From Paraprevotella xylaniphila YIT 11841 (lineage in GTDB: Bacteria; Bacteroidota; Bacteroidia; Bacteroidales; Bacteroidaceae): a stretch of DNA of 64,000 bases. Positions 26,486 to 49,379 of the stretch are shown in pieces; position 1 is the first letter of the stretch, and each line of letters starts with the position of its first letter. The position numbers and the translations under genes were made by a program. Under the pieces are notes generated by a model, which saw only the letters and a program-made list of their open reading frames with translations, was not told the DNA's origin and did not search any database. The stretch spans positions 1 to 64,000 of the forward strand of contig NZ_GL883812.1 in NCBI RefSeq assembly GCF_000205165.1, in the 5' to 3' direction.

Positions 26486-26515
26486 AAGGGTGTTTCTTAA
26501 AAAAAAGGGATTTTT

Positions 26516-26948: not shown

Positions 26949-26975
26949 CCGTAATAAAGACCAAAGGTTGCGGAT

Positions 26976-28034: not shown

Positions 28035-28070
28035 CCCCTTTGTTGTCCGGTATTCTTTCGGGGCTTCCGG

Positions 28071-30123: not shown

Positions 30124-30136
30124 TTTTGTTCTATCT

Positions 30137-31300: not shown

Positions 31301-31324
31301 TTTCGGTGTGTGGTTTGTTACGGT

Positions 31325-33578: not shown

Positions 33579-34018
33579 AATAAACAAGTATAAAAAGAGC
33601 GGAGTGACGAAGAAAACCCATGAGCATCCCTATGGATGTGGTGAGGTTCTTTCGTCACTCCGGTTGTATGGATGACAAATAAATGAGAATACGTGGCAGT
33701 GGCTTCCGGGATATTCGTAAGCTTTATGGCCGCAGATAATCCGGACGCCGGAAAAAGAAAAAGGATGGACAATAGTTCCGGACTGCCTTCCGGTGGCTGT
33801 GCTTCTTCTTCCTTTTGTGTTCGGGTATCACTGCCTCTGCTTCCGTTTCCAAGGTTCATTGTGTTCTTGTCCTTGCTTAATGCGGAGTCAGCGATGCTTT
33901 TGCATACGCGTCCTATCGTGACGTGGCTATGCAGGCTTCTGAATATGGCATATCCTTTCCGGCTCCAGCAACGGAAACGGATGGTTTTCTCAGCGTTGTA
34001 GATGACAGTCTTGTGCAT
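33575..34018 (-). CDS. Leader ORF coupled to bioB
   Basis: 147 codons directly downstream of a good promoter (TACTTTTG) with AAAGGAC near its ATG, ending as ATGA over the bioB start. The N-terminal 50 residues are basic and ordered-looking (RFRCWSRKGYAIFRSLHSH, VTIGRVCKSIADSALSK); the middle is polar (TQKEEEAQPPEGS) and the end crosses a long hairpin. I recall similar 'WSRKxYAxFxSL' segments in other Bacteroidales ORFs but cannot verify this. It may be a small protein, a translated leader that controls bioB, or both. No known biotin enzyme. Confidence 0.5.
   Translation of the reverse strand: MHKTVIYNAEKTIRFRCWSRKGYAIFRSLHSHVTIGRVCKSIADSALSKDKNTMNLGNGSRGSDTRTQKEEEAQPPEGSPELLSILFLFPASGLSAAIKLTNIPEATATYSHLFVIHTTGVTKEPHHIHRDAHGFSSSLRSFYTCLL
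33588..33661 (-). promoter_or_regulatory. Terminator-like hairpin (possible attenuator) before bioB
   Basis: On the minus strand GGAGTGACGAAAGAACC (from 33661) pairs with GGTTTTCTTCGTCACTCC (to 33601), with an inner CATCC/GGATG stem, then GCTCTTTTT. It lies inside the upstream ORF and 23 bases before the bioB ATG, the place and shape expected of an intrinsic attenuator. Confidence 0.55.
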
Positions 34019-34039
34019 TCAAAAGTCCTTTAGCCATTG

Positions 34040-34073
34040 CAAAAGTATGAAAAAAAAGATGAACCCGGAACAA
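34040..34073 (-). promoter_or_regulatory. Promoter of the biotin operon
   Basis: On the minus strand TTG (34073-34071) and TACTTTTG (34047-34040) are 23 bases apart; transcription would start near 34034, about 16 bases before the leader ORF. Confidence 0.55.
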
Positions 34074-34134
34074 GCTAACGTAGAAATAGGTTAAAAAAGA
34101 CATTAGTACGTACAGGCACGCATTCGGATTTGTT

Positions 34135-34872
34135 TTAAATCTGCTTGCGGTTCATGATGTCCACCCAGGCACTCACGACGGTGTCCGTTTCGAGGCGTTT
34201 GAACAGGTTCCGTTTGGTGGTTTTGATGGTGTTTACCGACTTGCATATCTGTTCGGCGATTTCTTTTTCAGTGTATCCTCTGGCAGACAAAAGCAGGATT
34301 TCACGTTCCGTCTCGCTCAATCCTTTTATTTTCTTTTTGTACCAATCGTGGCATAGCAGGTCGTATTTGTAATACGTATCGGTCTCCGTGTGCAGCATGA
34401 GGACGTGTCCGGGGGCTTTATGTGCCGAAGGTAATATGGTGCATATCGCAATCCAGACCTGGCCGTCCGGGGCAAGCGCAAACGGAGTGAGTTTGTGGTT
34501 TAAGAGTGTTTTTTTCCTGTTTCGGATAAGGTCTATGTCATAGGACAGGGTAAAGCTTTTCCTTTCACCGGCAGGGAATGTGTGGAATAGGCCAAGGCCT
34601 TTTTCGTGAATCTCCGAAAGCATGTCCCGTTCTTCTTCCGGGACATGTTTCAAGTACGTTTCATAACTGAAACCTTTGCTTCCGTCCGTTTTCTCCCCGC
34701 AAAGTCTGGCGATTTTGTCGGATACGTACAGGAAATCCCTTTTAAAGTAATCGATAATATAGATATATGTGGTACTTCCGAAAAATATCTTGAAAGCTTC
34801 TATAAGCGGCTTCGTTTTTTCGTATTCCTCCGGTGATATGTAAGGAATAAGATATGTGGATTTGGCCTTCAT
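34135..34872 (-). CDS. LuxR-type transcriptional regulator with PAS-like N-terminus
   Basis: 245 residues. The C-terminal 65 residues are a LuxR/GerE helix-turn-helix (LSETEREILLLSARGYTEKEIAEQICKS then VNTIKTTKRNLFKRL). The N-terminal 170 residues look like a PAS-type sensor fold (IYIIDYFKRDFLYVSDKIARLCG); no receiver domain. It is divergent from the peptide cluster (183 bases) and convergent in transcription order with nothing; the location makes it a candidate regulator of the cluster, but the signal is unknown. A palindrome in the shared promoter region may be its site. Confidence 0.85.
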   Translation of the reverse strand: MKAKSTYLIPYISPEEYEKTKPLIEAFKIFFGSTTYIYIIDYFKRDFLYVSDKIARLCGEKTDGSKGFSYETYLKHVPEEERDMLSEIHEKGLGLFHTFPAGERKSFTLSYDIDLIRNRKKTLLNHKLTPFALAPDGQVWIAICTILPSAHKAPGHVLMLHTETDTYYKYDLLCHDWYKKKIKGLSETEREILLLSARGYTEKEIAEQICKSVNTIKTTKRNLFKRLETDTVVSAWVDIMNRKQI

Positions 34873-34913
34873 GGTTGTTTTGTTGAAATTAAGTTAATTA
34901 CCACAAAGGTATA

Positions 34914-34921
34914 AAAATCCT
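34914..34921 (-). promoter_or_regulatory. -7 promoter box for luxR-type gene
   Basis: Reads TACCTTTG then T on the minus strand, 41 bases before the ATG. Confidence 0.5.
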
Positions 34922-34949
34922 TTTAATAGAATAATAAAAAAGCCGATAA

Positions 34950-34971
34950 TTTTCACACTTTAGGGTGAAAA
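34950..34971. promoter_or_regulatory. Palindrome in the divergent luxR/peptide-cluster promoter region
   Basis: TTTTCAC and GTGAAAA separated by eight bases, flanked by GCC and GGC. Candidate operator for the adjacent LuxR-type regulator or a short hairpin. Confidence 0.4.
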
Positions 34972-35005
34972 TGGCCTTTGGAACTATAAAAATATCATTC
35001 ACAAA

Positions 35006-35036
35006 TTGGCGGAACGGAGTCAAATCACATACTTTG
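35006..35036 (+). promoter_or_regulatory. Possible promoter of the peptide cluster
   Basis: TTG at 35006-35008 and TACTTTG at 35030-35036, 21 bases apart; the -7 box lacks one spacer base compared with TAnnTTTG. Twenty bases before the first ATG. Confidence 0.35.
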
Positions 35037-35055
35037 TGTAAAAAAATGCAAGGCT

Positions 35056-36033
35056 ATGCAAAAACAAGAATGGAAAACAAATCTTAGGGCGTTGGTTGCA
35101 GGTGGTGCGGGTTTCGTAGGAAGCCATCTTTGCCGGAGGCTTCTTCAATCAGGTTATGGGGAAGTCATCTGTGTGGATAACTTGCAGACCGGCCGGATAG
35201 CCAATGTGGCAGATTTGTTATGCTCTCCGCATTTCAGGTTCTTTGAGCATGATATCGTAAATGGGTTGCCCGTATCCGGGGCATTGCATGAGATTTACCA
35301 TTTGGCCTGTCCGGCTTCTCCTGTGCAATATCAAAAATCCCCGATACACACATTCAAGACTTCCGTCCTTGGCAGCATCCATCTTCTGGAACTGGCCAAA
35401 GAGAAAGGGGCAAGAATCCTGTTTACTTCCACCAGTGAAGTGTATGGCGATGCGCAAGTCTCTCCCCAAAACGAATCATATTGGGGCAATGTGAATCCTT
35501 TCGGTATCCGCAGTTGCTACGACGAAGGGAAACGAGGTGCCGAGACCTTGTTTCACGACTATCATGAAGAATACGGTGTAGATACACGTATCATTCGCAT
35601 ATTCAATACATACGGGCCACAGATGAGTGCGGAGGACGGTCGTGTAGTGTCCAATTTCATTGTGCAGGCACTTCGCGGCGAGCCTTTGACTATCCATGGC
35701 GACGGCACTCAGACACGTTCGTTCCAGTACGTGACAGATTTGATAGAGGCGATAGTCCGCACCATGCGGGACGGAGTGCCGCATGGCCCCATCAATGTCG
35801 GAAACCCTTACGAGATTTCGGTAAACGATTTGGCGGAACGGGTGTTACGCATGACCGGTTCCCGATCGCCTGTTGTGTATAAACCTCTTCCACAGGACGA
35901 CCCCTGTCGACGGCGGCCAGACATTACATTGGCCGCATCCGTGTTGGACGGGTGGAAGCCGGTGGTGGGGTTGGATGAAGGTTTGTCGCAGACTATAGCC
36001 TATTTCCGTCAGAATATGAACCAGGTTGTATGA
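35056..36033 (+). CDS. UDP-glucuronate decarboxylase-like epimerase (UDP-xylose synthase)
   Basis: 325-residue short-chain dehydrogenase of the extended type. NAD motif VAGGAGFVGSH at 14-24, catalytic FTSTSEVYGD and CYDEGKRGAE (the YxxxK pair), then IIRIFNTYGPQM and NVGNPYEISV. The spacing and HLACPASPVQYQ loop are those of UXS-type UDP-glucuronic acid decarboxylases, giving UDP-xylose, rather than GalE. First gene of the cluster; its TGA overlaps the next ATG. The product would be a pentose donor for the cluster's glycosyltransferases. Confidence 0.85.
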   Translation: MQKQEWKTNLRALVAGGAGFVGSHLCRRLLQSGYGEVICVDNLQTGRIANVADLLCSPHFRFFEHDIVNGLPVSGALHEIYHLACPASPVQYQKSPIHTFKTSVLGSIHLLELAKEKGARILFTSTSEVYGDAQVSPQNESYWGNVNPFGIRSCYDEGKRGAETLFHDYHEEYGVDTRIIRIFNTYGPQMSAEDGRVVSNFIVQALRGEPLTIHGDGTQTRSFQYVTDLIEAIVRTMRDGVPHGPINVGNPYEISVNDLAERVLRMTGSRSPVVYKPLPQDDPCRRRPDITLAASVLDGWKPVVGLDEGLSQTIAYFRQNMNQVV

Positions 36034-36671
36034 AGCAAGAATACGGTTGTTTGTTACTTAGTAAGTGTATGAAAGAAGAAATGGATAAAATCGCGGATTA
36101 TTTGCTGTTACGGAGTGGTTATCTGCAAGAGCTTGGGCTGTTTCATGGCAAGATGGGCGTGGTGGTCGCGTTGTATCTGTATGCTGATGCTTATGGGGAC
36201 GAGGTGATGCGCGAGTACGCATGGGAGTTGTTCCAACAAGTGTATGACGGGGTGCATACCGATATGCCGGTAGGTTTGGAACGCGGTTTGGCCGGTATCG
36301 GTTACGGCACGACGTTCCTCTGTAAACGCGGTTTGGTGGAATGTAGCTTGAATGACATCTTGGAAGACATAGACCGCAAGATTATGGAACGTGATCCGCG
36401 TAGGCTGACAGACATGTCTGTACGTTCAGGTTTGAGGGGATTGATGCTTTACCTTGGTCTGCGCCAAAGCGTGGAGGCTGTGACGACGTTCGACAGCCGG
36501 TATATGATGGAATTACAGGACACGGTGGAAAGGAACAACCTGTCTTGCCGGACGTTGGACTTCATGGATGTTTTGAACGAACCCACATTCCCAGAGGCGG
36601 AATATATCGAGAAGCCGTTAGGCATAGACGGGGGATGTGCTTATTATATATTAAAATCCATAGGGGTATGA
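36030..36671 (+). CDS. Short LanC-like (alpha-toroid) protein
   Basis: 213 residues, predicted all-helical, with four repeats of the GxxG-L helix start seen in LanC and related toroids: LGLFHGKMGVVVALYLY (about 36-52), GLERGLAGIGYGTTFL (about 77), SVRSGLRGLMLYLGL (about 130) and LGIDGGCAYYILKS (about 197). Full LanC proteins are about 400 residues with a Cys/Cys-His zinc site; this is half-size and I see no such triad, so lanthionine cyclase activity is doubtful. ATGA overlaps on both ends. May be a scaffold for the precursor or the glycosyltransferases. Confidence 0.6.
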   Translation: MKQEYGCLLLSKCMKEEMDKIADYLLLRSGYLQELGLFHGKMGVVVALYLYADAYGDEVMREYAWELFQQVYDGVHTDMPVGLERGLAGIGYGTTFLCKRGLVECSLNDILEDIDRKIMERDPRRLTDMSVRSGLRGLMLYLGLRQSVEAVTTFDSRYMMELQDTVERNNLSCRTLDFMDVLNEPTFPEAEYIEKPLGIDGGCAYYILKSIGV

Positions 36672-38287
36672 TGCACATATTCATTTTCAATAACGCGAGC
36701 CGTGCGGCCAATTATGGCATAGGCACTTACGTACGTTTGTTGGCAGACGGGCTTTTTGGACGTTCCGGCGTGAAAGTGTCTTTTGTGGACATGTTTTCGG
36801 ATGTGAAAGAGTATTCGATAGCGGAAGACGAACGCGGATGCCGTCATTACAAGGTTCCGGCTTTGTTTTCGGGCATGGAGAATGAGCCTTATTGCCGCAA
36901 TGTGTTTTATTTTTTAGCCAGGCATATCAAGGCGGAGGATGATGAACGGTTGGTGTTCCATTTCAACTATTTCCAGCATAAGCCGCTTGCCGCTTTGCTG
37001 AAAGGGCAATACTTTGATTGCCGGATTATTTTTACGGTACACTATTTAGGGTGGTGTTTCGAGTTGAAAGGTAACAAGACCCGTTTCCGTGAACTGATAG
37101 CCGAAGGGTATCAACCGAAAGATGACAAGGAAAGAGGCTTGTTGGCGGGCGTAGAAAACGAAAAAGAGTTTTTGCATTTGGCAGACGAGGTCATTGTCTT
37201 GTCAAAAGATACACAACAGATTCTGGCTGAAGGCTATGGCGTTTCTTCGGATAAGATGCACTTGGTTTATAATGGTTTGGGGGATGGTTTATGTTTCGAC
37301 AAAGATAAAAATGTAGGAAATGGCCGCATAATTCTGTTTGTCGGTCGTTTGGACGAGATTAAAGGGTTGAACTATTTGATTCATGCGTTCAGGCATATTG
37401 CAGACAAATATGCGGATATCCGTTTGGTGGTTGCCGGGGACGGGGATTTTCAACTTTATTTGTCGCAGTGCAGGGATTTGCAAGGTCGTGTCTCCTTTTT
37501 AGGGAAAGTGTCAAGCAGTGAGGTGGAAGACGTTTATCGGTCTGCATATATCGGCGTAATGCCTTCTTTTCATGAACAATGCAGCTATACGGCTATTGAG
37601 ATGATGCGTCATAAAATACCTTTGGTTGGCACGGATACAACGGGGTTGGCGGAGATGTTGGATGCCACACCGGAGTTGCGCGTATCCATCGATGAAGATA
37701 ATATGATGGAGGAGGAGTTTACGGGGCGGCTTGTGTCTTGTCTGGATTTGTTGTTGTCGGACGTGGAGGCATACCAACGGGCGGCAGATGCCGTGGGCAA
37801 ATTGTATGAAGACCGTTATAAGGTGCCGAATATGGTGCATGCCACGTGCTGTGTGATGGAAAGTTCATGGGACAGGCCGGATTATACCGTGTCGCCCGAC
37901 TATCTGAAACATATAGATTCCCGTATGATACAGTTGATAAACCAATGTCCCGACATAGATACGGATTTTTACGGGATGGGAGGAATCGGCGTATATTTAT
38001 GGAAAAGGGTGTTGGATTTATGTGACAGGAAAGAAGAGGATTTCCAAGCTTCCCTGATACTGGAACATTTGATATACTATATGGATTGGGTACAGGATGT
38101 GGCCGGTTCGGGTCCTTTGCCTGTGGAACTGTGGGCCATGATACGAAGTATGGGACAACACGGTTTTTATAAGACGTGCGTGTACGCTTTGCTCATGCGG
38201 CAACCCGGTCCGGATGCGCTTTTTCAGATGCCGTCAGATAGAGTTATAATACAAAATGCCTTAAAGATATGCAACTGCAAGATTTAA
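36668..38287 (+). CDS. GT4 glycosyltransferase with LanC-like C-terminal segment
   Basis: 539 residues. Residues 1-420 are a GT-B enzyme: HIFIFNNASRAANYGIGTYV at the start, ILFVGRLDEIKGLNYLIHAF and GVMPSFHEQCSYTAIEMM (retaining-GT motif). It resembles the family NCBI names TIGR04157, found with GG-leader Bacteroidales peptides (from memory). Residues about 428-539 carry DFYGMGGIGVYLWKRVLDL and helices like the LanC-like proteins nearby. ATG 36668 forms ATGA with the previous stop; a longer reading from 36545 runs inside the upstream gene and is rejected. Confidence 0.8.
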   Translation: MMHIFIFNNASRAANYGIGTYVRLLADGLFGRSGVKVSFVDMFSDVKEYSIAEDERGCRHYKVPALFSGMENEPYCRNVFYFLARHIKAEDDERLVFHFNYFQHKPLAALLKGQYFDCRIIFTVHYLGWCFELKGNKTRFRELIAEGYQPKDDKERGLLAGVENEKEFLHLADEVIVLSKDTQQILAEGYGVSSDKMHLVYNGLGDGLCFDKDKNVGNGRIILFVGRLDEIKGLNYLIHAFRHIADKYADIRLVVAGDGDFQLYLSQCRDLQGRVSFLGKVSSSEVEDVYRSAYIGVMPSFHEQCSYTAIEMMRHKIPLVGTDTTGLAEMLDATPELRVSIDEDNMMEEEFTGRLVSCLDLLLSDVEAYQRAADAVGKLYEDRYKVPNMVHATCCVMESSWDRPDYTVSPDYLKHIDSRMIQLINQCPDIDTDFYGMGGIGVYLWKRVLDLCDRKEEDFQASLILEHLIYYMDWVQDVAGSGPLPVELWAMIRSMGQHGFYKTCVYALLMRQPGPDALFQMPSDRVIIQNALKICNCKI

Positions 38288-39027
38288 AATCACTGCTTAC
38301 TTTTGTCTTTCCGGTACGTATCGACTGTGAAGAAAGATTAACTAATCTCCGTACTGTATTACGTCATTTCGAAGGCTTGGGGTGCCGTATGATTGTGTTG
38401 GAGGCCGATGCTGTGTCTGCCCTTGGAGATGAAGTTTGGCCTGATGTGGTGGAATACATTTTTGTAGAGGATGCTTCAAAGATTTTTCATCGCACACGGT
38501 ATATCAATGAATTGCTGCGTATGGCCGAGACGAAAGTTGCAGCGGTTTTGGATACGGATGTGTTGGTCGATTATGCCCAGATTGATGAAGCGGTGCGACT
38601 TATTCTTGAAGGATGCACCCTCGCTTATCCCTATAATGGACAGTTTGCAATCCTTTCTGAACAAATGTCGGTACAAATGAGAAAGAAGCTAGATTTGGAG
38701 TATTTGTGCCATATGAAATTATGTTACTATTTTGGACGTAGATTTTTTGGAGGTGCTTATTTGGTAAATTGTCAGCAATATTTGCGGTGTGGAGGCGAGA
38801 ATGAACGATTTGTAGGTTGGGGACCCGAAGATGCGGAGCGAATGCACCGTATAAAAATTCTTGGGTACAAGGTAGCATGGACTCAGAGTGGGCAACTGTA
38901 TCATCTGTATCATCCCCGTGGCAATTCTGTCTATCGGTCAAAAGAAGATGCCAAATTCATGAGAGATGAGTTTATAAAGATTTGCTGTATGTCGTTGGAT
39001 GAATTAAAATCATATATATCAAAATGA
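38269..39027 (+). CDS. GT-A glycosyltransferase, galactosyltransferase C-terminal (GT7C) type
   Basis: 252 residues. AVLDTDVLVDY supplies the metal-binding DxD (Asp95/Asp97) and GGENERFVGWGPEDAERM near 181 matches the C-terminal domain of GT7/GT27 galactosyl and GalNAc transferases, where the Trp-Gly-x-Glu-Asp motif binds donor and acceptor. Overlaps the previous gene by 19 bases and the next by 4 (ATGA). Base composition falls to about 38 percent GC here, the start of the AT-rich part of the cluster. Donor unknown; a hexosamine or pentose is possible. Confidence 0.8.
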   Translation: MQLQDLKSLLTFVFPVRIDCEERLTNLRTVLRHFEGLGCRMIVLEADAVSALGDEVWPDVVEYIFVEDASKIFHRTRYINELLRMAETKVAAVLDTDVLVDYAQIDEAVRLILEGCTLAYPYNGQFAILSEQMSVQMRKKLDLEYLCHMKLCYYFGRRFFGGAYLVNCQQYLRCGGENERFVGWGPEDAERMHRIKILGYKVAWTQSGQLYHLYHPRGNSVYRSKEDAKFMRDEFIKICCMSLDELKSYISK

Positions 39028-40634
39028 AGACTATTCTTGAATATTTCTTAGATGCTTTAGAGATTAACTATACGAAACATTTTACTAAAGTGCTATACCA
39101 AGAGCATCCGCATAAGTACAATATGTACGGTTTGAAGCAGATGTTAGATGTGTATTGTGTAAAAGCGTTAGGAGTATGCAGTGATACTAAGGATTTATAC
39201 AGTTTGAACTATCCGTGCATTTTACATATTTATGGTGATTTTGTTATAGGATTGGACTGTGCTTCAGATACAATAACTTATTTGCAGCATGGTAAGAAGA
39301 CAACAGTAAACCATGATATGTTCAAACGCATTTGGACAGGTAATGCTCTTGTAGTAGAAGAAACTACGGACGCAGTAGAGCCAAACTATGGGATGCATCA
39401 GCGAGACGAATTGATTTCAATGGTGAAAACATATAGTATTTCTATGATGTTGATATTAATTATCCTTATGGGTATAGTAAGTAATTGGGGTATTATAGTT
39501 CCTTTTGATATTTTACGCATAGTGTTAAGCTTGGTAGGTATCCTTGTCTGTGCTATGCTTATGGAGAAACAGTTGTTCGGAGTGAGTCATTATGGTGACA
39601 AAGTATGTAGTCTATTTCATCGTGCAGGTTGTAATAGTGTGCTTGATGGACCTATGGCGAAAGTATTTGGTATCAGTTGGAGTGAGGTCGGTTTGGGATA
39701 TTTCATGGCCAACATATTGCTCCTGTCACTCATACCTGAAGCATCTGCATTCATAGCTGTCATTAATTGGGTAGCTATGCTCTATGGGGTATGGAGTATT
39801 TATTACCAATGGCGTGTGGCTAAAAGTTGGTGTGTGTTGTGCCTAATAGCTCAGGCTGTTATTTGGGCTATGGGAATAACAGCAATCATTTCATATTTGA
39901 CAGTACCTTTTACTTTCGGCATCCTCTGTGGATTGTTGTCTTGTATGGTCTTTTCCATCAATATTTTGATTGTACACCAATATGCTTCGGCTTATGTAAC
40001 AGAAAAGGAACGTGTACGTGCTGTGCAAAAGTATCGGGCTCTTAAAGCCAATAGTGATGTAGCTAAAGTACTCTTTGAAAAAAGTGATTTTTATGAGACT
40101 ACACTCAATGATTCATCAATAATTTTCGGAAATCCAAAAGCAAAGGTGCGTGTGACGATACTGAGTAATCCTCATTGTAATCCTTGTGCATATATGCATA
40201 CACAAGTAGAAAAATTGTTGGATATGAGTGAAAATAAAATCTGTGTACAATATATCTTTTCGTCATTTAACGAATCGTTGGAGGATAGCAGTAGGTATCT
40301 TATATCTTGTTACATGAATAATCGTAAAGATGAGGTGTTACGTAAATTTGCTCTTTGGTACAATAAAGAAAAGTTTGATTACGAGAGAGTTATTAAAAGG
40401 GATGAGGTGCATATACATACAGAAAAGGTTGAAATGGAAATGGAAAAGCATAGGATGTGGCGTAAGAAAACATCTTTAATTGAAACCCCGACAATCTTAG
40501 TAAATGGCTATAAACTTCCCAATGAATATGAATTGGTGGATTTGGCTATGATTGACAATTTGGTTATAACTGAAAAAATATCTTGTGAGATATCAATGGC
40601 CGAAGCACTACGCCATTGGGAGCAGAATAGCTAA
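39024..40634 (+). CDS. Degenerate C39-like / VKOR / thioredoxin fusion (disulfide-forming oxidase)
   Basis: 536 residues in three parts. Residues 1-125 resemble a C39 peptidase fold but lack the CGP catalytic Cys motif (LYQEHPHKYNMYGLKQML stands there), like inactive C39-like domains that bind leaders. About 130-325 has five or six membrane segments with loop cysteines KVCSLFHRAGCNSV and the VKOR redox motif SWCVLCLIAQ. About 365-520 is a thioredoxin/DsbA-like domain with SNPHCNPCAYMH (CxxC). It would oxidise cysteines of the exported peptide at the periplasmic side. Located directly before the precursor gene. Confidence 0.85.
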   Translation: MKTILEYFLDALEINYTKHFTKVLYQEHPHKYNMYGLKQMLDVYCVKALGVCSDTKDLYSLNYPCILHIYGDFVIGLDCASDTITYLQHGKKTTVNHDMFKRIWTGNALVVEETTDAVEPNYGMHQRDELISMVKTYSISMMLILIILMGIVSNWGIIVPFDILRIVLSLVGILVCAMLMEKQLFGVSHYGDKVCSLFHRAGCNSVLDGPMAKVFGISWSEVGLGYFMANILLLSLIPEASAFIAVINWVAMLYGVWSIYYQWRVAKSWCVLCLIAQAVIWAMGITAIISYLTVPFTFGILCGLLSCMVFSINILIVHQYASAYVTEKERVRAVQKYRALKANSDVAKVLFEKSDFYETTLNDSSIIFGNPKAKVRVTILSNPHCNPCAYMHTQVEKLLDMSENKICVQYIFSSFNESLEDSSRYLISCYMNNRKDEVLRKFALWYNKEKFDYERVIKRDEVHIHTEKVEMEMEKHRMWRKKTSLIETPTILVNGYKLPNEYELVDLAMIDNLVITEKISCEISMAEALRHWEQNS

Positions 40635-40680
40635 CTGCAGAATAGTCAGTGTGATTGTTTAACAAATAAATAACACAGTA

Positions 40681-40911
40681 ATGAAAAAGCTTAAAAGATT
40701 TGTGTTAAATCCTTCATGTCATTCTCTGGATATAGGTGCAATGACTGGTATAGTGGGGGGATTTTCTGCAAGGTCTACTTCTTGTGGTACTTCTTGTGGT
40801 TCTTATCCTTCCATATATATCACCAATTGTAACGGAGACTGTTTTACTAAGGAAGGGCAATACGCAGTATGTGTTGGTCCGACTAGAGAAGAGTGGAAAT
40901 ATTGCGAATAA
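40681..40911 (+). CDS. GG-leader peptide precursor with six-cysteine core
   Basis: 76 residues. Leader MKKLKRFVLNPSCHSLDIG then AMTGIVGG ends in a double glycine at 26-27, the cut site of C39 exporters. The core (28-76, starting FSARSTSC) has six Cys (35, 39, 50, 54, 64, 75), many Ser, Thr, Gly and Tyr, and ends KYCE. Spacing C-x3-C, C-x3-C, C-x10-C suggests three disulfides or S-glycosylation plus two; the CGTSCGS stretch offers sugar-acceptor sites. Leader style fits GG-Bacteroidales precursors (TIGR04149-like, from memory). A hairpin terminator follows 6 bases after the stop. Confidence 0.85.
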   Translation: MKKLKRFVLNPSCHSLDIGAMTGIVGGFSARSTSCGTSCGSYPSIYITNCNGDCFTKEGQYAVCVGPTREEWKYCE

Positions 40912-40917
40912 ACGAAT

Positions 40918-40948
40918 GGATTGGTGGCCATGGTCGCCAATCCTTTTC
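40918..40948 (+). terminator. Terminator directly after the precursor
   Basis: GGATTGGTGGC pairs with GTCGCCAATCC (G-T pairs) followed by TTTT. It would raise precursor message over the downstream export genes. Confidence 0.65.
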
Positions 40949-41107
40949 AAATTCATATTTGCATAATTTAGTCAAAGTACATATTGAAAATGCCTTTTTA
41001 TATTCTGCTTCAAAATACATGTCATTTAATTGAATAAAATGAAAACTATACGAAAAACATAGTTTACTAATTAATTATATAAATAATATTATGTGGGGGG
41101 ACAACTA

Positions 41108-43984
41108 ATGACATTTTTTAAGAAAATAGTAATATTCGTGATTTTTAGCCAACTATTCAGCCTGAAAGGAGTAACACAGGGTATCATTGTTCAAGGAATA
41201 GTGCGAGATGCTTTTGACAACCGTGGACTTGAAAACGCACATGTGAAGATATTGAACAGCGATAGTAATGTTGTAGCTCTCGTTACAACTGAAATTCCGT
41301 ATACAGTAATACATTCTGAAGGGGCGGTCAAAAAGAACAAAAATCCTAATAGCGGTGCCTTCTTTGAGTGTATAGTGCCAAAAAACGGGAGCTATACGGC
41401 TGTGGTCAGTATGATGGGATATAAGACAAAACGAGTGCTGTTTCATGTGCCCCAAGATTATGGAAAAAAGTTGGAAATAGGGGATATTTACCTTTTTCAA
41501 GAGCAGAAGGCTCTGGAAGAAGTGACAGTGGCAGCTACTAAATTAAAGATATATCATAGCGGGGATACGCTTGTCTATAATGCGGATGCCTTTGTATTGG
41601 ACAAGCAAAATGTTCTGGAGGATCTCGTAAAAATGCTTCCTGGGGTGGAACTGCGTGATGGAAGGGTTTTTGCTAATGGACGATTTGTAGAAAGCATCAT
41701 AATCAGTGGAAAAGATGTTATGCCAAGCGATCCCATGCAACTTATGAAAATGTTGCCAGCTTATATCGTAGACAAGTTAAAATTTTACGACCAACAAGGA
41801 GAAAAAAGCAAAACGATGGGTAAGGATATGCACGATGCCAGTTATGTGATGGATGTATATCTCAAGCGTGATTATCATGCAGCATGGCTTGGCAATGCAC
41901 AAGCAGGAGGAGGAACACAAAAGCGTTGGGAGGGATTAGGCTTTATTATGCGTTTTGATGACAGGCAGTTCTTCACTATTAGTGCTGATGCCAACAACAT
42001 AGGTCGAGAACGAGAAAATACAGATATTTGTACCATAGAAAGTGCATACGATGATAGAGACTTGACAAACCATCAATTGAACCTAAACTATTCTTATCAT
42101 CCTACGGACAAATTACGTTTTGATGTAAACGGAGTTGCAAGAAGACAGGATACGGAATTTGGGGTTAAAGAAAAGCAGAAGTTGGATCTTTCTAATAGCA
42201 CGGATATATATAAATTGTATAGTAAAACAAGTAATAAAATAAATGATTATTATAGAGGTGGAATGTCAATGACTCTACGTCCGCGTAAGGGGCTATATGG
42301 AAAACTCATGTATTCTTTCAAATATGGAAAAGATACAGAAGAAAGTAAAGGATACTCCATAACATCGTTGCGGGACATCAATATAAGTGATTCCGTATGG
42401 CTGCAAATTGGGCAAATGCAGGCAACAGTTCCTACAGGAATAACAAACATATATAAAGACAGCGTACTTTCTTTGCGTCATGCGTATGAGCATAAGGCTG
42501 AAACAGAATGGCACTTGGCATTGGGGGGCAATTTATTAAAATTTAAAATTGACTATGATATGCACGGGGATAATGGTAATATCAATCAACGATATATAAA
42601 CAGAGTGTTTGAAGACGAAGAAACAGAAGCCAAACGCAAGAGCCTTCATGACACACAAATTAAAGATGTAGCCACGACTATGCAGTTGGAATACAATATC
42701 AACTACATCGAGGATAGTAGCAAGCGAGGAATACTGACACCATATTACACTTTTATACATAAGAAAGCACATGATTATCGTGAATTGGTTTTATTTGAGC
42801 CACAAAATGACGGATCGGAGGTAAGTCATATAGATGTGGATAATAGTAGAAGGATTAAAGAAAAATCAGAAACTCATACGTTAGGACTGTATTGGATTCA
42901 TGAGATGCAACTGCATCGGAAGGGATGGGTTTGCTTCAATGGTCAAATGCCTATTCATATAAAGGATGTGAGTGTGCAGCTTATCCATGAGACGGCATCC
43001 AATCGACAACACAAGCAATATATACTTCTTTCGCCCACTTTAGAAATGAAATGGTATCCAAAAGCAGATGACAGAAAAGGAAGTATAACATCGTTGAATT
43101 TGAAAGGTTGGTGCAATCAGACGACTCCTAAAGAGATTTACCTGTTAAACCAGACTGATACCTCTGATCCATTAAATACTTATATGGGTAATCCAGAGTT
43201 GCGGAAACAAACAGATTTAGGGCTTTCATTGGGATTCCGCCATTACTTCGAACGTAACAAGCATAACACCTATGCCACATTCGGTAGCACAAATACGTGG
43301 AATGCCATAGCTATTCAGTCTATCTATGATAAACAAAATGGAACGAGGACTCTTATGCCCGTTAATGTAGATGGAAAGTATAATATTTCTTTAGAATGTG
43401 GCTATGGTATGCCGCTCGCTTCCAACCAAACCTGTTGGCTAAACTTGTCGGCTGGAGCCAACTACACACGCTGTGCCAATATGATGTTTGATAATAGTAA
43501 CAACCAAGGATTTGACTATATGAAACTATATGGTTATCGTGTTAAAGCCAATCTTAGATGGAACAATACATCCCGAAACGTAGAAGTGGCTTACACTGTT
43601 GCATCCAATGGTAATGGCATTATTTCCAATGCGGATTCTAACGAAAAATTACAAGAACTCACTAATAGTTTATCTATAACTAGTCATTTGCCGGCAGGTA
43701 TTAATGCCTCTGTAAATTGTAATTTTATCTCACGGTTTGGATTTGAAATGAAGACACTGAACAGGACATTTATATTCACCGATGCACATATTTCCAAATC
43801 AATTTATAAAGAAAAAGTAGAATTAAGCCTTAGTGCCATAGATATTTTCCATCAACGTAAACATGTACAATTTGTTATGAATGGAGAAGGGCACATTGAA
43901 ACTATGGCCACTCAATATATACCGGCCTATGTCTTGGCAAGTATACGATTCAATTGGTCTCTTTCCTCTAAAAAGAAAAGGTAA
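41108..43984 (+). CDS. Outer-membrane beta-barrel protein of the peptide cluster
   Basis: 958 residues. Signal peptide MTFFKKIVIFVIFSQLFSLKG, a regulatory-like beta domain (about 25-135, GIVQGIVRDAFDNRGLENAH-like), a plug-like domain (SGDTLVYNADAFVLDKQNV, LPGVELRDGRVFANGRFV) and a long barrel ending VLASIRFNWSLSSKKKR. ATG 41108 follows GGGGGG; an in-frame GTG at 41093 is less likely. Paralogous to the barrel at 23401. In the cluster it could be the outer-membrane exit for the peptide or an immunity/receptor protein; neither is proven. Only 1 base separates it from the exporter gene. Confidence 0.75.
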   Translation: MTFFKKIVIFVIFSQLFSLKGVTQGIIVQGIVRDAFDNRGLENAHVKILNSDSNVVALVTTEIPYTVIHSEGAVKKNKNPNSGAFFECIVPKNGSYTAVVSMMGYKTKRVLFHVPQDYGKKLEIGDIYLFQEQKALEEVTVAATKLKIYHSGDTLVYNADAFVLDKQNVLEDLVKMLPGVELRDGRVFANGRFVESIIISGKDVMPSDPMQLMKMLPAYIVDKLKFYDQQGEKSKTMGKDMHDASYVMDVYLKRDYHAAWLGNAQAGGGTQKRWEGLGFIMRFDDRQFFTISADANNIGRERENTDICTIESAYDDRDLTNHQLNLNYSYHPTDKLRFDVNGVARRQDTEFGVKEKQKLDLSNSTDIYKLYSKTSNKINDYYRGGMSMTLRPRKGLYGKLMYSFKYGKDTEESKGYSITSLRDINISDSVWLQIGQMQATVPTGITNIYKDSVLSLRHAYEHKAETEWHLALGGNLLKFKIDYDMHGDNGNINQRYINRVFEDEETEAKRKSLHDTQIKDVATTMQLEYNINYIEDSSKRGILTPYYTFIHKKAHDYRELVLFEPQNDGSEVSHIDVDNSRRIKEKSETHTLGLYWIHEMQLHRKGWVCFNGQMPIHIKDVSVQLIHETASNRQHKQYILLSPTLEMKWYPKADDRKGSITSLNLKGWCNQTTPKEIYLLNQTDTSDPLNTYMGNPELRKQTDLGLSLGFRHYFERNKHNTYATFGSTNTWNAIAIQSIYDKQNGTRTLMPVNVDGKYNISLECGYGMPLASNQTCWLNLSAGANYTRCANMMFDNSNNQGFDYMKLYGYRVKANLRWNNTSRNVEVAYTVASNGNGIISNADSNEKLQELTNSLSITSHLPAGINASVNCNFISRFGFEMKTLNRTFIFTDAHISKSIYKEKVELSLSAIDIFHQRKHVQFVMNGEGHIETMATQYIPAYVLASIRFNWSLSSKKKR

Positions 43985-43985
43985 T

Positions 43986-46202
43986 ATGAAATTATTAAAT
44001 CGTTTTCCACACTTTAAGCAGCTTGATGCCTCGGATTGTGGCCCGACATCTTTGCGTATGATAGCCAGTTTTTATGGCCTAAACTATTCTGCGGAGATGT
44101 TACGAAAGCATTGCTATATTTCTCGCCGTGGTGTCAACATGCAGGGCATAAGTGAAGGAGCGCAATATATTGGTTTTGATACAATTGGGATGAAAATGAC
44201 ATTTAGCCAATTAGCGGAGGAGGGTGTATTTCCCTGTATCCTGTATTGGAACCAAAACCATTTTGTGGTTTGTTACGGTATAGAAAGAGATAAGGCGGGA
44301 GGTTATAAAATCCATATTTCAGACCCGGCTTCACAACGCCTTACCTATACCCAAGAAGAATTTAAGAAGTGTTGGATTGGAAGACGTGCCGAAGATAAAG
44401 GGTGCGGTGTGGTTTTGATGTTGGAACCGGGGGATAATTGGGGGAAAGTGGAAGATGAATATCGGAAGAACAGCCGGAGCATTCTTTCGTTTACCCGTTA
44501 TTTTATGCCTTACCGTTGCATGATAGGCCAGTTGCTGTTGGCCATGCTTGTCGGGAGTTTGATACAGATGGTGTTGCCTTTCCTTTCGCAAGCGATGGTG
44601 GATCAAGGCATCAATGGGCGCAATTTGGATGTCATCACCCTGATACTTTTGGCGCAGTTGGGGTTTTTCGTGGCCACGCTGAGCATCGACTACATCCGTT
44701 CGTGGATTATGCTGCACATGAATTCGCGTATCGACATTTCGTTGATAGCCGATTTCCTGATCAAACTTACGGCCATGCCCTTGCAGTTTTTCGATTCCCG
44801 CATGACGGGCGACATCTTGCAACGCATAGGTGACCATGGGCGGATAAAGAACTTTCTGCTGGGCAACAGCATGCGTATCGTGTTTTCGATAGTGAATTTC
44901 ATTGTATATTTGGGTATTCTGGCCTATTATAACATGGTGGTGCTGACCATTTTCCTTGTGGGCAATGCTTTGTATGTGGCATGGATTTCGTTCTTTATGC
45001 GCTATCGGAGGGAGCTTGACATCAAGCGGTTCAACCAGTCCGCTTTGGAACAGAGCAAGATGATACAGTTGGTACAGGGCATGCAGGACATCAAGCTCAA
45101 TAACAGCGAACGCCAGAAGCGTTGGGAATGGGAGCGGATACAGGTCAAGCTCTTTCAGATAGGCCTGAAAGGGCTTCGCATCGGGCAGGTGCAGCAGTCC
45201 GGTTCGGTATTTTTCACGCAAACCACGCATATCCTTATTTATTATATCGCGGCGAAAGCCGTGGTGGACGGTTCGATGACCCTGGGTATGATGATGTCCC
45301 TGACCTACATTATCGGGCAGGTATCTGCCCCGATAGGGGAGTTCATCGGTTTTGCACAATCGTTCCAAGATGCGAAAATCAGTTTGGAACGGTTGAATGA
45401 GATACATTCGCAGGATGACGAGGAGACGGATATTGATAAAAAACTGGCCACGCTTCCTCAAAAACGGGACATTTGCATTGACCACCTTTCGTTCAGTTAC
45501 ACCGGTTCGGAGCGGGATTGGGCATTGAAGGACGTTTCGCTCCATATTCCGGAGCGTCAGGTGACGGCCATCGTGGGTGAAAGCGGATGCGGAAAAACCA
45601 CGCTGATCAAACTGCTTCAGGGATTTTATGAACCGACCCGTGGCAGTATCAAGGTAGGAGGAGTCAATCTCTCGGACATCAATCCTCATACCTGGCGTGC
45701 GGCCACCGGTTCGGTGATGCAGGACAGTTTTATCTTTTCCGATACCATAGAGGGAAACATTGCTTTCAATACAGACGAAGCGGATGAAGAACGAATGAAA
45801 AGTGCCGCCCGCATGGCGCGGATTGATGATTTCGTGGAGTCTCTGCCTTTGGGCTATGACACCGTCATCGGTATGGAAGGCAAGGGGGTGAGCCAAGGAC
45901 AGCGGCAACGCATCCTGATAGCCCGTGCCATCTACAAGAATCCGGAATATATTTTCCTCGACGAGGCGACCAATTCGCTCGATGCCACCAATGAAGCCCA
46001 TATCATGGACAACCTGCACCGGTTTTACGAAGGGCGTACGGTGGTGGTCAGTGCGCATCGCCTGAGTACCGTAAAGGATGCCGACCAGATTATCGTGATG
46101 GACAAGGGAAAGATAGTGGAACGGGGCAACCATCAAAGCTTGTTGGAAAAACGAGGCAGGTATTATGAATTAGTGAAAAATCAAATGAGTGTCATGGCAT
46201 GA
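43986..46202 (+). CDS. Peptidase-containing ABC transporter (C39 leader peptidase/exporter)
   Basis: 738 residues: C39 peptidase (1-140) with Cys18 in DASDCGPTSLRM, His in NQNHFVVCYG and Asp in ISDPASQR; a six-segment membrane domain (about 165-450); an ABC domain with Walker A GESGCGKTT (about 531), signature VSQGQRQRI, Walker B YIFLDEAT and switch His in VSAHRLST. It cuts GG leaders and pumps the core across the inner membrane. Codons before 44,400-44,500 are AT-rich, after it GC-rich, placing a composition break at the peptidase/membrane-domain border. ATGA with the next gene. Confidence 0.95.
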   Translation: MKLLNRFPHFKQLDASDCGPTSLRMIASFYGLNYSAEMLRKHCYISRRGVNMQGISEGAQYIGFDTIGMKMTFSQLAEEGVFPCILYWNQNHFVVCYGIERDKAGGYKIHISDPASQRLTYTQEEFKKCWIGRRAEDKGCGVVLMLEPGDNWGKVEDEYRKNSRSILSFTRYFMPYRCMIGQLLLAMLVGSLIQMVLPFLSQAMVDQGINGRNLDVITLILLAQLGFFVATLSIDYIRSWIMLHMNSRIDISLIADFLIKLTAMPLQFFDSRMTGDILQRIGDHGRIKNFLLGNSMRIVFSIVNFIVYLGILAYYNMVVLTIFLVGNALYVAWISFFMRYRRELDIKRFNQSALEQSKMIQLVQGMQDIKLNNSERQKRWEWERIQVKLFQIGLKGLRIGQVQQSGSVFFTQTTHILIYYIAAKAVVDGSMTLGMMMSLTYIIGQVSAPIGEFIGFAQSFQDAKISLERLNEIHSQDDEETDIDKKLATLPQKRDICIDHLSFSYTGSERDWALKDVSLHIPERQVTAIVGESGCGKTTLIKLLQGFYEPTRGSIKVGGVNLSDINPHTWRAATGSVMQDSFIFSDTIEGNIAFNTDEADEERMKSAARMARIDDFVESLPLGYDTVIGMEGKGVSQGQRQRILIARAIYKNPEYIFLDEATNSLDATNEAHIMDNLHRFYEGRTVVVSAHRLSTVKDADQIIVMDKGKIVERGNHQSLLEKRGRYYELVKNQMSVMA

Positions 46203-46402
46203 AACAGCAGAAACAACATTGCCCGGAAGTAGAGCGGCTCATGGGGGGACGCCTTCCGTTTGTTACACGGTACGGCATAACCATCGTGGTCATTGTAATG
46301 GCATTGGTGTGTGCCGGATTGCTGTGGTCGGGAGGACCGTCGCAGCAACTGATGAGGGATATTATGGAACATACAGTCCAACAAATAAAAAACAAAATAT
46401 AA
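46199..46402 (+). CDS. Short single-span protein resembling only the HlyD-type N-terminal anchor
   Basis: 67 residues; a cytosolic start (CPEVERLMGGRLPFVTRYG), one membrane segment (ITIVVIVMALVCAGLLW, about 28-44) and a 20-residue tail. The pattern is that of the first 50 residues of HlyD-like adaptors that normally follow C39 exporters in Bacteroidales, but the long coiled-coil and beta domain are missing and no full HlyD gene is present in the window. ATGA overlap with the exporter and TAATG overlap with the next gene support translation. Could be a reduced adaptor or a small exporter subunit. Confidence 0.6.
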   Translation: MKQQKQHCPEVERLMGGRLPFVTRYGITIVVIVMALVCAGLLWSGGPSQQLMRDIMEHTVQQIKNKI

Positions 46403-47832
46403 TGAACCATTCCAATTGTGTGATTTCGGCAGTAGGGCGGAACAGCCTGCACCGTATGTGGCTGAAAGGAGGGTGCAATTTTAACTTGCACTTGGTGGTC
46501 TACGATGATTCCATCGAAGAGTTTCGCGGAGACACGGAGTATATTTGCCACATCAAAGGATATAAGTTGAAAGTCATTTACCGGTATCTTGAGATGCATC
46601 CGGAGTTGAAGGAACAGTATGATTATTTCTTCTTTCCGGATGATGACATCCAAATGGATGCTGCGGCCATCAATGCCCTGTTCGAGTCCATGCGGCGTTA
46701 CCGCTTGCAGATTGCACAGCCGGCATTGCGTATGTCTTATTACACGTGGAGGCATACGTTGCAAGACAGGTATTGCAAGTTGCGGTATATCAATTTCGTG
46801 GAAATGATGGTGCCGTGTTTCTCACGTGAGGCATTAAACAAAGTGTTGTTCACTTTTAATGAGAACGAGACGGGATGGGGGACGGAAACCCATTGGCCGG
46901 TGCTGATTGATGCTTCGCAAAGGGACATGGCCGTCATTGACGAAGTAAGCGTGGTGCATACACGTCCCATCCAATCGGGACAGGCCATCCATAACAGGGA
47001 ACTGGCTGCTTACTTGCGAAAATATAACCTGTCTACCAAGGTGCTTCACTATGATTGTCTGCCTTCTGAAAGACGGTATTGCTGCGACAGGAATACCTTC
47101 AGGGAACTCTGTAACACGTTGGGGCATTGGATAGGGGCGGAACGAATATCGGCTTTCTCGGCGGGTGAGGACGGATACTTCGGATATGTACACTTCCTGT
47201 TCCTGTTTGCCCGTATGACACAGATGCGAAACTATGCGGACGCGGGTTATGATTTGTTGTGCAAGGCACAAGACTGTTTGGGGACGGTGATGCACGATAT
47301 GACTTTCCGGAGCGGCATAAGCGGATGTTGTTGGCTGATAGAATATCTGTCAAAAGAAGGGCTTATAGAGGAGAATCCCGAAGATTTGCTTGAAACGGTG
47401 GATGCGTATATCAGGCAAAATATCGGGGAAACGATGTCGGTGGAGGATTTGGCCGGAATAGGACGTTATTACTTGGCCAAGATGCAGAACCGTCCTACGA
47501 AGGAACATCGTGATGACTGCGAGAGGATTGCCGTTTTGTTGCAAGGCCGAATGGGGGAGGAGGCTCCTTCGGTTACGGTGGATGCCCTCACGTTGATGCA
47601 GGCTTGCGGAATGGAAACGAAGGAACAACTTCGAGTATTGGAACGCAAAATAGAAAGTATGGAGTGTACTCAAGTGGAGCGTGTATATATGCTGTTCCGT
47701 CTTTATCTGTTGACGCACGATGGTTATTTTTTGGCAAGGGTGCAAGAGGGGATGAAAAACCTTCGGCCGCAGTTGATGACATTGGAAGATGCGGTAATGT
47801 TAGTTGAAATCATGTATCACACTGTAAAATAA
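46402..47832 (+). CDS. DUF707-like glycosyltransferase fused to LanC-like domain
   Basis: 476 residues. About 1-240 is GT-A-like: NSLHRMWLKGGCNFNLHLVVYDD, a metal-binding FFPDDDI (Asp80-82), NENETGWGTETHWPVL and VVHTRPIQSG, features I associate with DUF707-type enzymes. About 252-476 is helical with LanC-like helix starts (GEDGYFGYVHFLFLF, FRSGISGCCWLIEYL, VEDLAGIGRYYLAK). No zinc-site Cys-His pair is evident in the helical part. The reading frame from 46189 is rejected in favour of ATG 46402. Confidence 0.65.
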   Translation: MNHSNCVISAVGRNSLHRMWLKGGCNFNLHLVVYDDSIEEFRGDTEYICHIKGYKLKVIYRYLEMHPELKEQYDYFFFPDDDIQMDAAAINALFESMRRYRLQIAQPALRMSYYTWRHTLQDRYCKLRYINFVEMMVPCFSREALNKVLFTFNENETGWGTETHWPVLIDASQRDMAVIDEVSVVHTRPIQSGQAIHNRELAAYLRKYNLSTKVLHYDCLPSERRYCCDRNTFRELCNTLGHWIGAERISAFSAGEDGYFGYVHFLFLFARMTQMRNYADAGYDLLCKAQDCLGTVMHDMTFRSGISGCCWLIEYLSKEGLIEENPEDLLETVDAYIRQNIGETMSVEDLAGIGRYYLAKMQNRPTKEHRDDCERIAVLLQGRMGEEAPSVTVDALTLMQACGMETKEQLRVLERKIESMECTQVERVYMLFRLYLLTHDGYFLARVQEGMKNLRPQLMTLEDAVMLVEIMYHTVK

Positions 47833-47842
47833 GGAGAAGGCT

Positions 47843-48604
47843 ATGAAGACGGCAATATTGTTTGTGACGCATATTTATAATGAGGATATAGAACTGCAAA
47901 TCATCAAGTTACATGAAGAGACCAAGGACTTTGCCACATTGTATGTCGGCTTTCAGGCAGACAAGGTGCGCATCACGCTACCGGATGGCATCCGTTCTTT
48001 CCCCTTCACCGTCAAGGAACTCAACAGGTTGGGATATCGTTCGTGGGGATGTACTTTGATGGACGGGAATTTCCACTTCGTGATGTTGGACTTTTATCTC
48101 AAACATACCGGTTATGACTTTTATTGGCTTATAGAATACGATGTCCGTTTTAATGGGGATTGGAAAAACTATTTCGAGTTCTTTGCGGATAAGGATGACG
48201 ATTTTATTTCTGCCCATATTGGAGACTTTTCCGGGAATACCCGATGGACAAGATGGAAAGAGATAGAATTGGTCAATATCAAACTGAATCATAAGATGTT
48301 GTTACGTTCTTTCAATCCGATATGCCGTTTCTCTGACAGGGCGCTTTCTTTACTGAACGAGCGATGCCTATTGGGCGACAGGGGACACAATGAGGTGTTG
48401 ATGCCTACATTGTTCAAATGCTTCAATTTGAAAATGTCCGATTTCGGGGGGAATGGCAGATTTATATACACCGGTTGTTCGGGATTGTTTTATACGGATG
48501 ACCCGAATGATGTTTGCGGGGACAAATGTACCCATCGTTTCCGTCCTGCTCATACGGAGGGTGAAATGGCATTGTCTGGTATGATTTATCATCCGGTGAA
48601 GTAA
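47843..48604 (+). CDS. Putative glycosyltransferase (DUF3405-like), copy 1
   Basis: 253 residues, no signal peptide. A GT-A-like core is suggested by AILFVTHIYNEDIELQ, WLIEYDVRFNGDW (the acidic, metal-binding-like motif, here ExD) and the C-terminal GMIYHPVK. Four Cys in the last quarter (TGCSGLFYTDDPNDVCGDKC). Related to the next gene: both share E(Y/N)D(V/I)xxxGD(W/F) and end near YHPVK. Donor and target unknown; probably acts on the cluster's peptide. Confidence 0.55.
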   Translation: MKTAILFVTHIYNEDIELQIIKLHEETKDFATLYVGFQADKVRITLPDGIRSFPFTVKELNRLGYRSWGCTLMDGNFHFVMLDFYLKHTGYDFYWLIEYDVRFNGDWKNYFEFFADKDDDFISAHIGDFSGNTRWTRWKEIELVNIKLNHKMLLRSFNPICRFSDRALSLLNERCLLGDRGHNEVLMPTLFKCFNLKMSDFGGNGRFIYTGCSGLFYTDDPNDVCGDKCTHRFRPAHTEGEMALSGMIYHPVK

Positions 48605-48632
48605 TAAACTAAAACAAGCAAGATAGAAGATA

Positions 48633-49379
48633 ATGGAAAATTACAATCATAATTGTTTGGTCTTTGCCACACATAAATTGGACGAAGGCATATTGGATTA
48701 CCTATCCAACCTCAAAAAGGAAGTGGAAGGAGTGATGGACCTTTTGATCTTGTACGATCGGTCGAACAGCCCTATAAAGAGAGAAGACCATCCGGAATAT
48801 AATTTCTATTTTTTCGATTCTACCGGATTGAAAGGTTTTTTCCATCAGAATGAGAGGTTGCTACCCAACACTTTTGTAGCTTTGGCGGAATGTGCGAAAC
48901 AATATCGTTACGACCATTACCTGCTGATGGAAAATGATATTGTGCTACATGGGGATTTTCGCCGTTTCGTCCAACGGGTCAATGCAGAAGACGCGGTGGA
49001 TTATATTCATATCGCTACCGACACGGAAGGCAGCCCGCAAAAGCATTGGCCAATCCGGTATATTCGGGAAAATCCTTTCAGGCATCTTTATTTCTCTTGG
49101 TGCCATATCTTGTATGTCAGTCATGGCTTCCTGACGGATGTGGCAGAGTTCATGGCACGCAATGATTCCGTTTACTACGAGTTCCTGCTGCCCACCATGG
49201 CATATAACGGCAATTATCTGGTTCGGCAATTTGAGAATTTCGGCTACCGTTTTCAAGTCTCCTGGGGACCGGCAGAACTTTACGAAAGCAAGTATATGGA
49301 AGAACGGATACCCGATACGTTCTATCATCCGGTGAAAGATTTGGGTATCGTGGATTGGGGAGCAGGAGATATGCCCTAA
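48633..49379 (+). CDS. Putative glycosyltransferase (DUF3405-like), copy 2
   Basis: 248 residues. CLVFATHKLDEGILDYL at the start, LLMENDIVLHGDFRRF as acidic motif and TFYHPVKDLGIVDWG near the end mirror copy 1. It lies 28 bases after copy 1 and is the last gene of the cluster. Also resembles short Bacteroidetes GT-like proteins with ENDxxxxGD; the exact family is uncertain. Confidence 0.55.
   Translation: MENYNHNCLVFATHKLDEGILDYLSNLKKEVEGVMDLLILYDRSNSPIKREDHPEYNFYFFDSTGLKGFFHQNERLLPNTFVALAECAKQYRYDHYLLMENDIVLHGDFRRFVQRVNAEDAVDYIHIATDTEGSPQKHWPIRYIRENPFRHLYFSWCHILYVSHGFLTDVAEFMARNDSVYYEFLLPTMAYNGNYLVRQFENFGYRFQVSWGPAELYESKYMEERIPDTFYHPVKDLGIVDWGAGDMP

Follow-up and report, generated by a model that had tools for sequence, protein, structure and literature searches.

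The window, the whole 64,000-nucleotide stretch that was analysed (contig 8 of the 3.79 Mb genome of Paraprevotella xylaniphila YIT 11841), carries between the biotin operon and ispE a run of 12 genes (35056-49379, + strand), mostly overlapping or a few bases apart, in which a small Cys-rich peptide and its exporter stand beside a predicted UDP-xylose synthase (UXS) and five glycosyltransferases (GTs). What does such a run make, and are the sugars meant for the peptide? The first-pass annotation had described a tightly overlapping gene run with UXS, five GTs, a C39 exporter, a VKOR-thioredoxin oxidase, a barrel and a 6-Cys peptide with a Gly-Gly (GG) leader, and we found every one of these parts in its place and on the + strand. 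It had overlooked two LanC-like parts, a 67-aa membrane-fusion remnant, a LuxR-type regulator and what seems to be left of a lost glf gene (Table 1).

Table 1 Features of the gene run and of its divergent regulator in the window.
Feature	Position	Strand	Basis
LuxR-type regulator, divergent, upstream of the run	34135-34872	-	Pfam GerE
A: predicted UDP-glucuronate decarboxylase (UDP-xylose synthase, UXS)	35056-36033	+	343 bits to human UXS1
B: LanC-like protein; first ~11 codons, apparent scar of lost glf	36030-36671	+	Pfam LANC_like 31.1 bits
C: GT4 glycosyltransferase, TIGR04157-like; C-terminal ~150 aa without family	36671-38287	+	TIGR04157 362.2 bits
D: GT-A glycosyltransferase (Glyco_transf_7C)	38269-39027	+	Pfam 39.5 bits, cut-off 23
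E: disulfide oxidase with degenerate C39-like, VKOR and thioredoxin parts	39024-40634	+	Pfam; CxxC motifs
F: precursor, GG leader of 27 aa and 6-Cys core of 49 aa	40681-40911	+	sequence, orthologues
G: outer-membrane beta-barrel (OMP_b-brl_3), proposed outer-membrane route	41108-43984	+	Pfam 53.4 bits
H: C39 peptidase ABC exporter	43986-46202	+	family matches; DCG, NHFVVCYG, DP motifs
Membrane-fusion protein cut down to 67-aa N-terminal anchor	46199-46402	+	homologues at same place in relatives
I: DUF707 GT-A domain fused to LanC-like helical domain	46402-47832	+	Pfam DUF707 + LANC_like; AlphaFold
J: GT-A-type glycosyltransferase, K homologue	47843-48604	+	alignment with K; sub-cutoff Pfam hint
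K: GT-A-type glycosyltransferase, no Pfam family	48633-49379	+	AlphaFold pLDDT 76; GT-A matches

For the barrel, the exporter, the GT4 and protein I, starts tighter than those of the open reading frame list were chosen (41108, 43986, 36671 and 46402, respectively). The widest intergenic gaps, of 46 and 196 bases, lie on either side of the precursor gene. Homologues of the LuxR gene adjoin the same run in P. clara and in genomes G069 and G098, as well as two other UXS loci (L078 and L127). NCBIfam and Pfam searches matched no LanB, LanM or YcaO family in the run, nor any flippase, polymerase or lipid-linked initiating transferase, and the sole radical SAM match was the flanking biotin synthase; no dedicated immunity gene was recognised in the run by the same searches.

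Sugar supply, glycosyltransferases and LanC-like proteins

Protein A found its best PDB match in human UXS1, the next enzyme type scoring 146 bits, and alignment with the human enzyme revealed the TSE, YxxxK and QTR motifs of UXS-type SDR proteins, which we take to be the catalytic motifs. A is, by these matches, a predicted UDP-xylose synthase, and an NDP-sugar dehydrogenase on contig 76 of the same genome can, with its substrate presumed from sequence, be the source of UDP-glucuronate. A search of 18 Paraprevotella genomes found UXS (E up to 1e-70) in 4 and protein I (E up to 1e-40) in the same 4 (Fisher p 0.0003, kinship ignored). All 6 UXS genes of the genus sit in loci with a C39 exporter or a GG peptide (contigs 8 and 61 of the window genome, G000; contigs 8 and 28 of P. 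clara, G188; contig 32 of G069; and contig 1 of G048, where the match splits into two pieces). All three UXS genes of Prevotella sp. P3-122, one of them with a stop, likewise lie in peptide loci. Family-wide, UXS occurred together with protein I in 5 of 7 genomes (p 0.009) and with a C-type GT in 10 of 16 (p 0.0008), against 94 of the 399 genomes overall; this overall rate, and the absence of any query gene within 1.5 kb on each side of 24 out of 26 other UXS genes in the family, led us to reject UXS as a general marker of such loci.

The counterpart run of P. clara also encodes a UDP-galactopyranose mutase, Glf (TIGR00031, 370 bits; cut-off 304). In a DNA alignment the window jumps from 36062 to 36068 while P. 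clara spans 8095-9180: the window lacks this glf gene, the first codons of which seem to remain fused to B. A second glf homologue of the window genome lies on contig 61, and Glf was found in or beside such loci in P. clara, G069, G048, P3-122 (twice), L047 and G113. From this distribution, B, C and D look like the core of the system, and UXS, Glf, I, J and K like accessories.

Contig 61 (22,400-42,300; L078 and L082) holds a second locus of glycopeptide type, with LuxR, UXS, a protein joining two GT2 domains to a LanC-like one, a radical SAM protein (best match TIGR04463, below cut-off), barrels, a GT14-like gene, a C39 exporter, a GT2 and Glf. Large proteins with an NPxTxxEYxxMLxxGTWxGG-like motif, recognised by eye, were seen elsewhere near UXS and a GT14 gene (L036 12060-13439, L037 2767-3606, L050 4283-5239 and L121 7934-8908); some have a GG-leader-like start, and the GT14 gene of L050 is fused to a methyltransferase domain.

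The TIGR04157 match of C lies under the cut-off of that model (400). The P. clara counterpart of C is 95% identical, and those of nine other genomes, aligned along 478 or more of the 538 residues, are 39-66% identical; five more genomes encode C-type GTs of 29-40% identity. D belongs to the Glyco_transf_7C family, presumably of GT-A fold. J and K align as one family, and in both L050 and L051 a J-type domain is joined to an I-type one. The AlphaFold model of I (pLDDT 85) gave structure matches that include GT-A enzymes; that of K matched GT-A enzymes such as B3GalT5 among many others, its top match being a nucleotidyltransferase. D, I, J and K had no NCBIfam match whatever, SunS-type (TIGR04195) included, and for C this family was absent among the best 25 of 38 NCBIfam matches, the remainder scoring below 17.6 bits against a cut-off of 350. 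That the product would be heavily glycosylated, as the first-pass annotation proposed, is suggested by the number of GT genes. Homologues of the DUF707-type GT were also seen in Alphaproteobacteria (L052 and L053), with no other window protein matched in the 20 kb around them; since the match covers the DUF707 part alone, both loci were left out of all counts.

Pfam LANC_like (cut-off 23.2) matched B and the C-terminus of I (27.2 bits) just above its cut-off. The first-pass annotation had ruled out LanB, LanM, YcaO and radical SAM modification, and none of these families was matched in the run, but it contains these two LanC-like parts, which do not carry the zinc motif. In LanC enzymes, the zinc ligand positions are, as we understand them, C...CHG; the CHG motif reads FHG or NG in 5 of 6 aligned LanC-like proteins (FHGKMG in B), and the sixth sequence begins after the motif. 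LanM, LanKC and LanL models gave B 14.5-19.6 bits, from its LanC-like part, against cut-offs of 304-650, and NCBIfam and Pfam found no dehydratase (LanB, LanM, LanKC or LanL) in the run. Weak members of the LanC-like group, without Pfam match, were L051 (one of the five aligned) and a gene of L126. A search for solved structures similar to B returned none at E 1, and no LanC was among the 50 Foldseek matches listed for the LanC-half of I. B directly precedes C in all 12 loci read (the window, P. clara, G069, P3-122 and eight further genomes; the count leaves out the 5 further genomes with C-type GTs), with UXS adjacent in five (the window, P. clara, G069, P3-122 and G387), and LanC-like domains are fused to GT2 domains in L044 (26.4 bits) and L078 (23.4 bits). 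Because of this constant order and these fusions, we infer that the LanC-like parts are GT partners, acting as scaffolds or in precursor docking, and not cyclases.

Precursor, export and possible exchange at a fixed site

The precursor F (76 aa, GG at residues 26-27) matched no NCBIfam model at E 0.1, TIGR04149 included, in a search in which short proteins are easily missed. Orthologues in two other species were 69-70% identical, with a dN/dS of about 0.1 at high dS (1.6-1.9), and this conservation under purifying selection indicated a real gene. In the oxidase E, CxxC motifs stand at positions 270 (CVLC, VKOR) and 385 (CNPC, thioredoxin) and are kept as CALC or CVLC and CNPC in two relatives; motif inspection revealed no catalytic Cys in its C39-like part.

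In P. clara YIT 11840 (G188) the locus occupies the same site but is split over two contigs: LuxR, UXS, Glf, B to E, a precursor unlike F and the first part of a barrel come first, then the barrel end, exporter, remnant, I, J, K and ispE; its contig NZ_JH376578.1 (L043) gave a 96% match. The sugar and export proteins of the two species were 86-97% identical, except for D (75%, dS 0.89), whereas peptide, barrel and oxidase were 25-51% identical: 27% over 67 aligned residues for F, 25% over 715 residues for the barrel and 51% for E, with saturated dS. Against a background dS of 0.28 (bioA) and 0.27 (ispE), dS was 0.14 for C, 0.10-0.18 from the remnant through I to J, and 0.33-0.47 for A, B, H and K. 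The LuxR protein had diverged too (72%, dS 0.75), which, together with D, shows that divergence extends beyond the peptide and the barrel. These identities and the dS pattern describe a mosaic locus that differs most in its peptide-oxidase-barrel middle. Between K and ispE, P. clara has an inserted gene, presumably PIN-domain-like, and a K fragment (L031 13531-14280).

Absence of co-occurring genes in related genomes would, by the first-pass annotation's own test, have refuted its proposal. This was not the case: P. clara, a further Paraprevotella and Prevotella sp. P3-122 all have the run, and the core (LanC-like B, GT4 C and GT7C D) was also found in eight further genomes; it recurs in other genera of the family. 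A decayed copy was seen in another Paraprevotella (L034 5837-15318, the same region as L046), with a truncated VKOR gene, interrupted I and K and a different precursor. Since relatives retain the machinery, several with a different peptide, the loci look like a family for secreted sugar-peptides.

The 67-aa membrane-fusion remnant had no Pfam or NCBIfam match, yet it is 97% identical in P. clara; in seven relatives a homologue of 67-73 aa occupies this position, and in others a longer protein does. We then classified exporter loci by homology to three TolC queries, all matching Pfam OEP, and seven barrel queries, of which those from L044 and L116 had no Pfam barrel match; most queries came from these same loci. 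Eighteen loci had a barrel without a TolC homologue, three had TolC without a barrel (L035, L036/L037 and L072) and one, L040, with its exporter in two frames, had neither and fell in neither class, some of these absences being uncertain where loci end at contig edges. Loci covering the same region were counted once (L032/L044, L043/L031, L045/L033, L046/L034 and L049/L035), and the tally omits L125 and the second L048 unit, whose exporters are broken, as well as L147 and L148, where the contig ends before the exporter. Of the 18 barrel loci, 14 had a recognisable membrane-fusion homologue, 67-252 aa long (67-73 aa in eight), versus 432-443 aa in the three TolC loci. Because barrel loci have no TolC homologue and their membrane-fusion proteins are short, we infer that the barrel replaces TolC. 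One of the TolC loci lies on contig 23 of the window genome (L072), where a GG Cys-rich peptide accompanies a C39 exporter, a full-length membrane-fusion protein and TolC, with the VKOR gene in pieces and no homologue of the window GTs in 10.9 kb.

Barrel G is highly diverse among relatives, and G082 has five precursor-like genes among three barrels, one of these in two pieces. In G069 (a short fragment) and in P. clara, barrel similarity goes with precursor similarity; in P3-122 it does not, the peptide being 70% identical to that of the window and the barrel 23%, so that strict barrel-peptide co-variation was not supported. In P3-122 (L048 14352-19161, and L125), pieces of broken exporters come after extra precursor-barrel units, a pattern that duplication and exchange of cassettes might leave.

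A proposed glycosylated peptide and its alternatives

Taken as a whole, the run is best explained as an operon of RiPP type whose product would be a secreted glycopeptide with disulfide bridges, a reading to which we give a probability of about two in three; most likely, judging from gene content, the peptide carries xylose and disulfides, and a LanC-like protein without zinc assists its GTs. UXS would turn UDP-glucuronate into UDP-xylose, and GTs in the cytosol would assemble a short glycan on Ser/Thr (or Cys) residues of the 49-residue core, C and D probably acting first with their LanC-like partner B and I, J and K then extending the glycan by adding xylose and maybe further sugars. Having lost the zinc motif, the LanC-like parts would provide the scaffold or dock the precursor. 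The C39 exporter would cleave after Gly-Gly and deliver the peptide to the periplasm, where the VKOR-thioredoxin protein would form the disulfides, and barrel G, standing in for TolC, may carry it across the outer membrane. The role is likely to be antibacterial competition. The earlier proposal of a glycosylated, disulfide-rich, C39-exported peptide with UDP-xylose supply is thus still the best reading of the gene content, and the co-occurrence holds, its likeness to glycocins being one of analogy only.

The GTs and UXS might instead serve to build a glycan of the cell surface or to add sugars to the barrel, with the peptide an unmodified disulfide bacteriocin that happens to share the operon. 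Such peptides have precedent, bacteroidetocins being called unmodified antimicrobial peptides in the portion of PMC10352776 available to us, and the contig 23 locus pairs a GG Cys-rich peptide with PCAT, membrane-fusion protein and TolC but no such GTs. We nevertheless consider this unlikely, as the GTs are tied to exporter and precursor across several genera, LanC-like parts are fused to GTs and UXS tracks peptide loci within the genus; moreover, since no flippase, polymerase or initiating transferase was matched in the run, a cytosolic peptide is the simplest acceptor. Two LanC-like parts and a core rich in Ser, Thr and Cys could also recall a true lanthipeptide or thioether pathway with the LanC-like protein as cyclase. 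This reading was rejected as highly improbable: the run has no dehydratase, the zinc ligands are missing (each of the five aligned proteins spanning the CHG position has FHG or NG there), a disulfide oxidase is present, and other Bacteroidales LanC-like proteins have likewise been described as devoid of zinc ligands in the part of PMC10352776 at hand.

Even if the peptide is glycosylated as proposed, it might serve in signalling or in interaction with host surfaces rather than in killing, as the large diversified barrel and the lack of a recognised immunity gene in the run would allow; replacement of peptide and barrel within a locus that stays in place would be typical of competition systems, and we regard a non-killing role as quite improbable. 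Tentative, and in our view possible rather than probable, is the wider proposal of a Prevotellaceae glycopeptide family that would use xylose and galactofuranose, in which a dead LanC fold would dock peptide GTs and a peptide-matched barrel, replacing TolC, would be exchanged with the peptide as a cassette.

Relation to described systems

The term glycocin-like, used in the first-pass annotation, holds as an analogy, with a C39 PCAT and a thiol oxidase both in the cluster; membership among glycocins was rejected, as no GT of the SunS family was found. According to the part of PMC12457901 that we had, glycocins (sublancin, glycocin F and thermoglycocin) likewise combine a C39 PCAT, thiol oxidases, a GT and a disulfide core, mostly with a GG leader, but each system has one named peptide GT (SunS, GccA, EnfC or ThgS), whereas the present run has five GTs of other families. 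UXS, the LanC-like parts and Gram-negative export further set it apart, and the strings "xylose" and "Bacteroid" are absent from the text of PMC12457901.

The first-pass annotation knew of no described product of this layout, and this stands in part: no such locus was found in the literature searched, whereas a GT family of the sort, TIGR04157, is already among those that NCBI curates. We take this family to be linked to radical SAM TIGR04148 and precursor TIGR04149 under the name GG-Bacteroidales. The window shares with those systems the TIGR04157-like GT4 and the GG-leader peptide; unlike them, it has no radical SAM protein in the run, four more GTs, UXS and VKOR, and a precursor matching no NCBIfam model.

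Bacteroidales loci with radical SAM, LanC-like and GT genes are among the closest published systems, as far as the excerpt of PMC10352776 goes: their LanC-like proteins, without zinc ligands and near sugar enzymes, are deemed nearer to endoglucanases and outside lanthipeptide clusters, and the loci share GG peptides with the window, some with PCAT and an outer-membrane protein and no membrane-fusion protein found. UXS, UDP-galactopyranose mutase, LanC-GT fusion and precursor exchange are features seen here and not named in that excerpt, and "epimerase" and "VKOR" do not occur in the text of PMC10352776. Bacteroidetocins are also small peptides of Bacteroidetes (PMC6671954, in part); "glycosyl", "VKOR" and "C39" are absent from that text. 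No such locus is described in the available portions of PMC10352776, PMC12457901, PMC6671954 and PMC13289728, and neither such a locus nor a multi-sugar RiPP with xylose was found among the matches listed in open-access literature, represented by titles and abstract starts. The kind of system appears to be known in outline, and the variant to be undescribed in the literature searched.

If the proposed reading is true, gut Prevotellaceae would make a multi-sugar RiPP family that does not belong to the glycocins and uses xylose and, possibly, galactofuranose, and Bacteroidales LanC-like genes without LanB would gain a testable function as GT partners. It would also suggest how peptides may exit cells without a full membrane-fusion protein and TolC.
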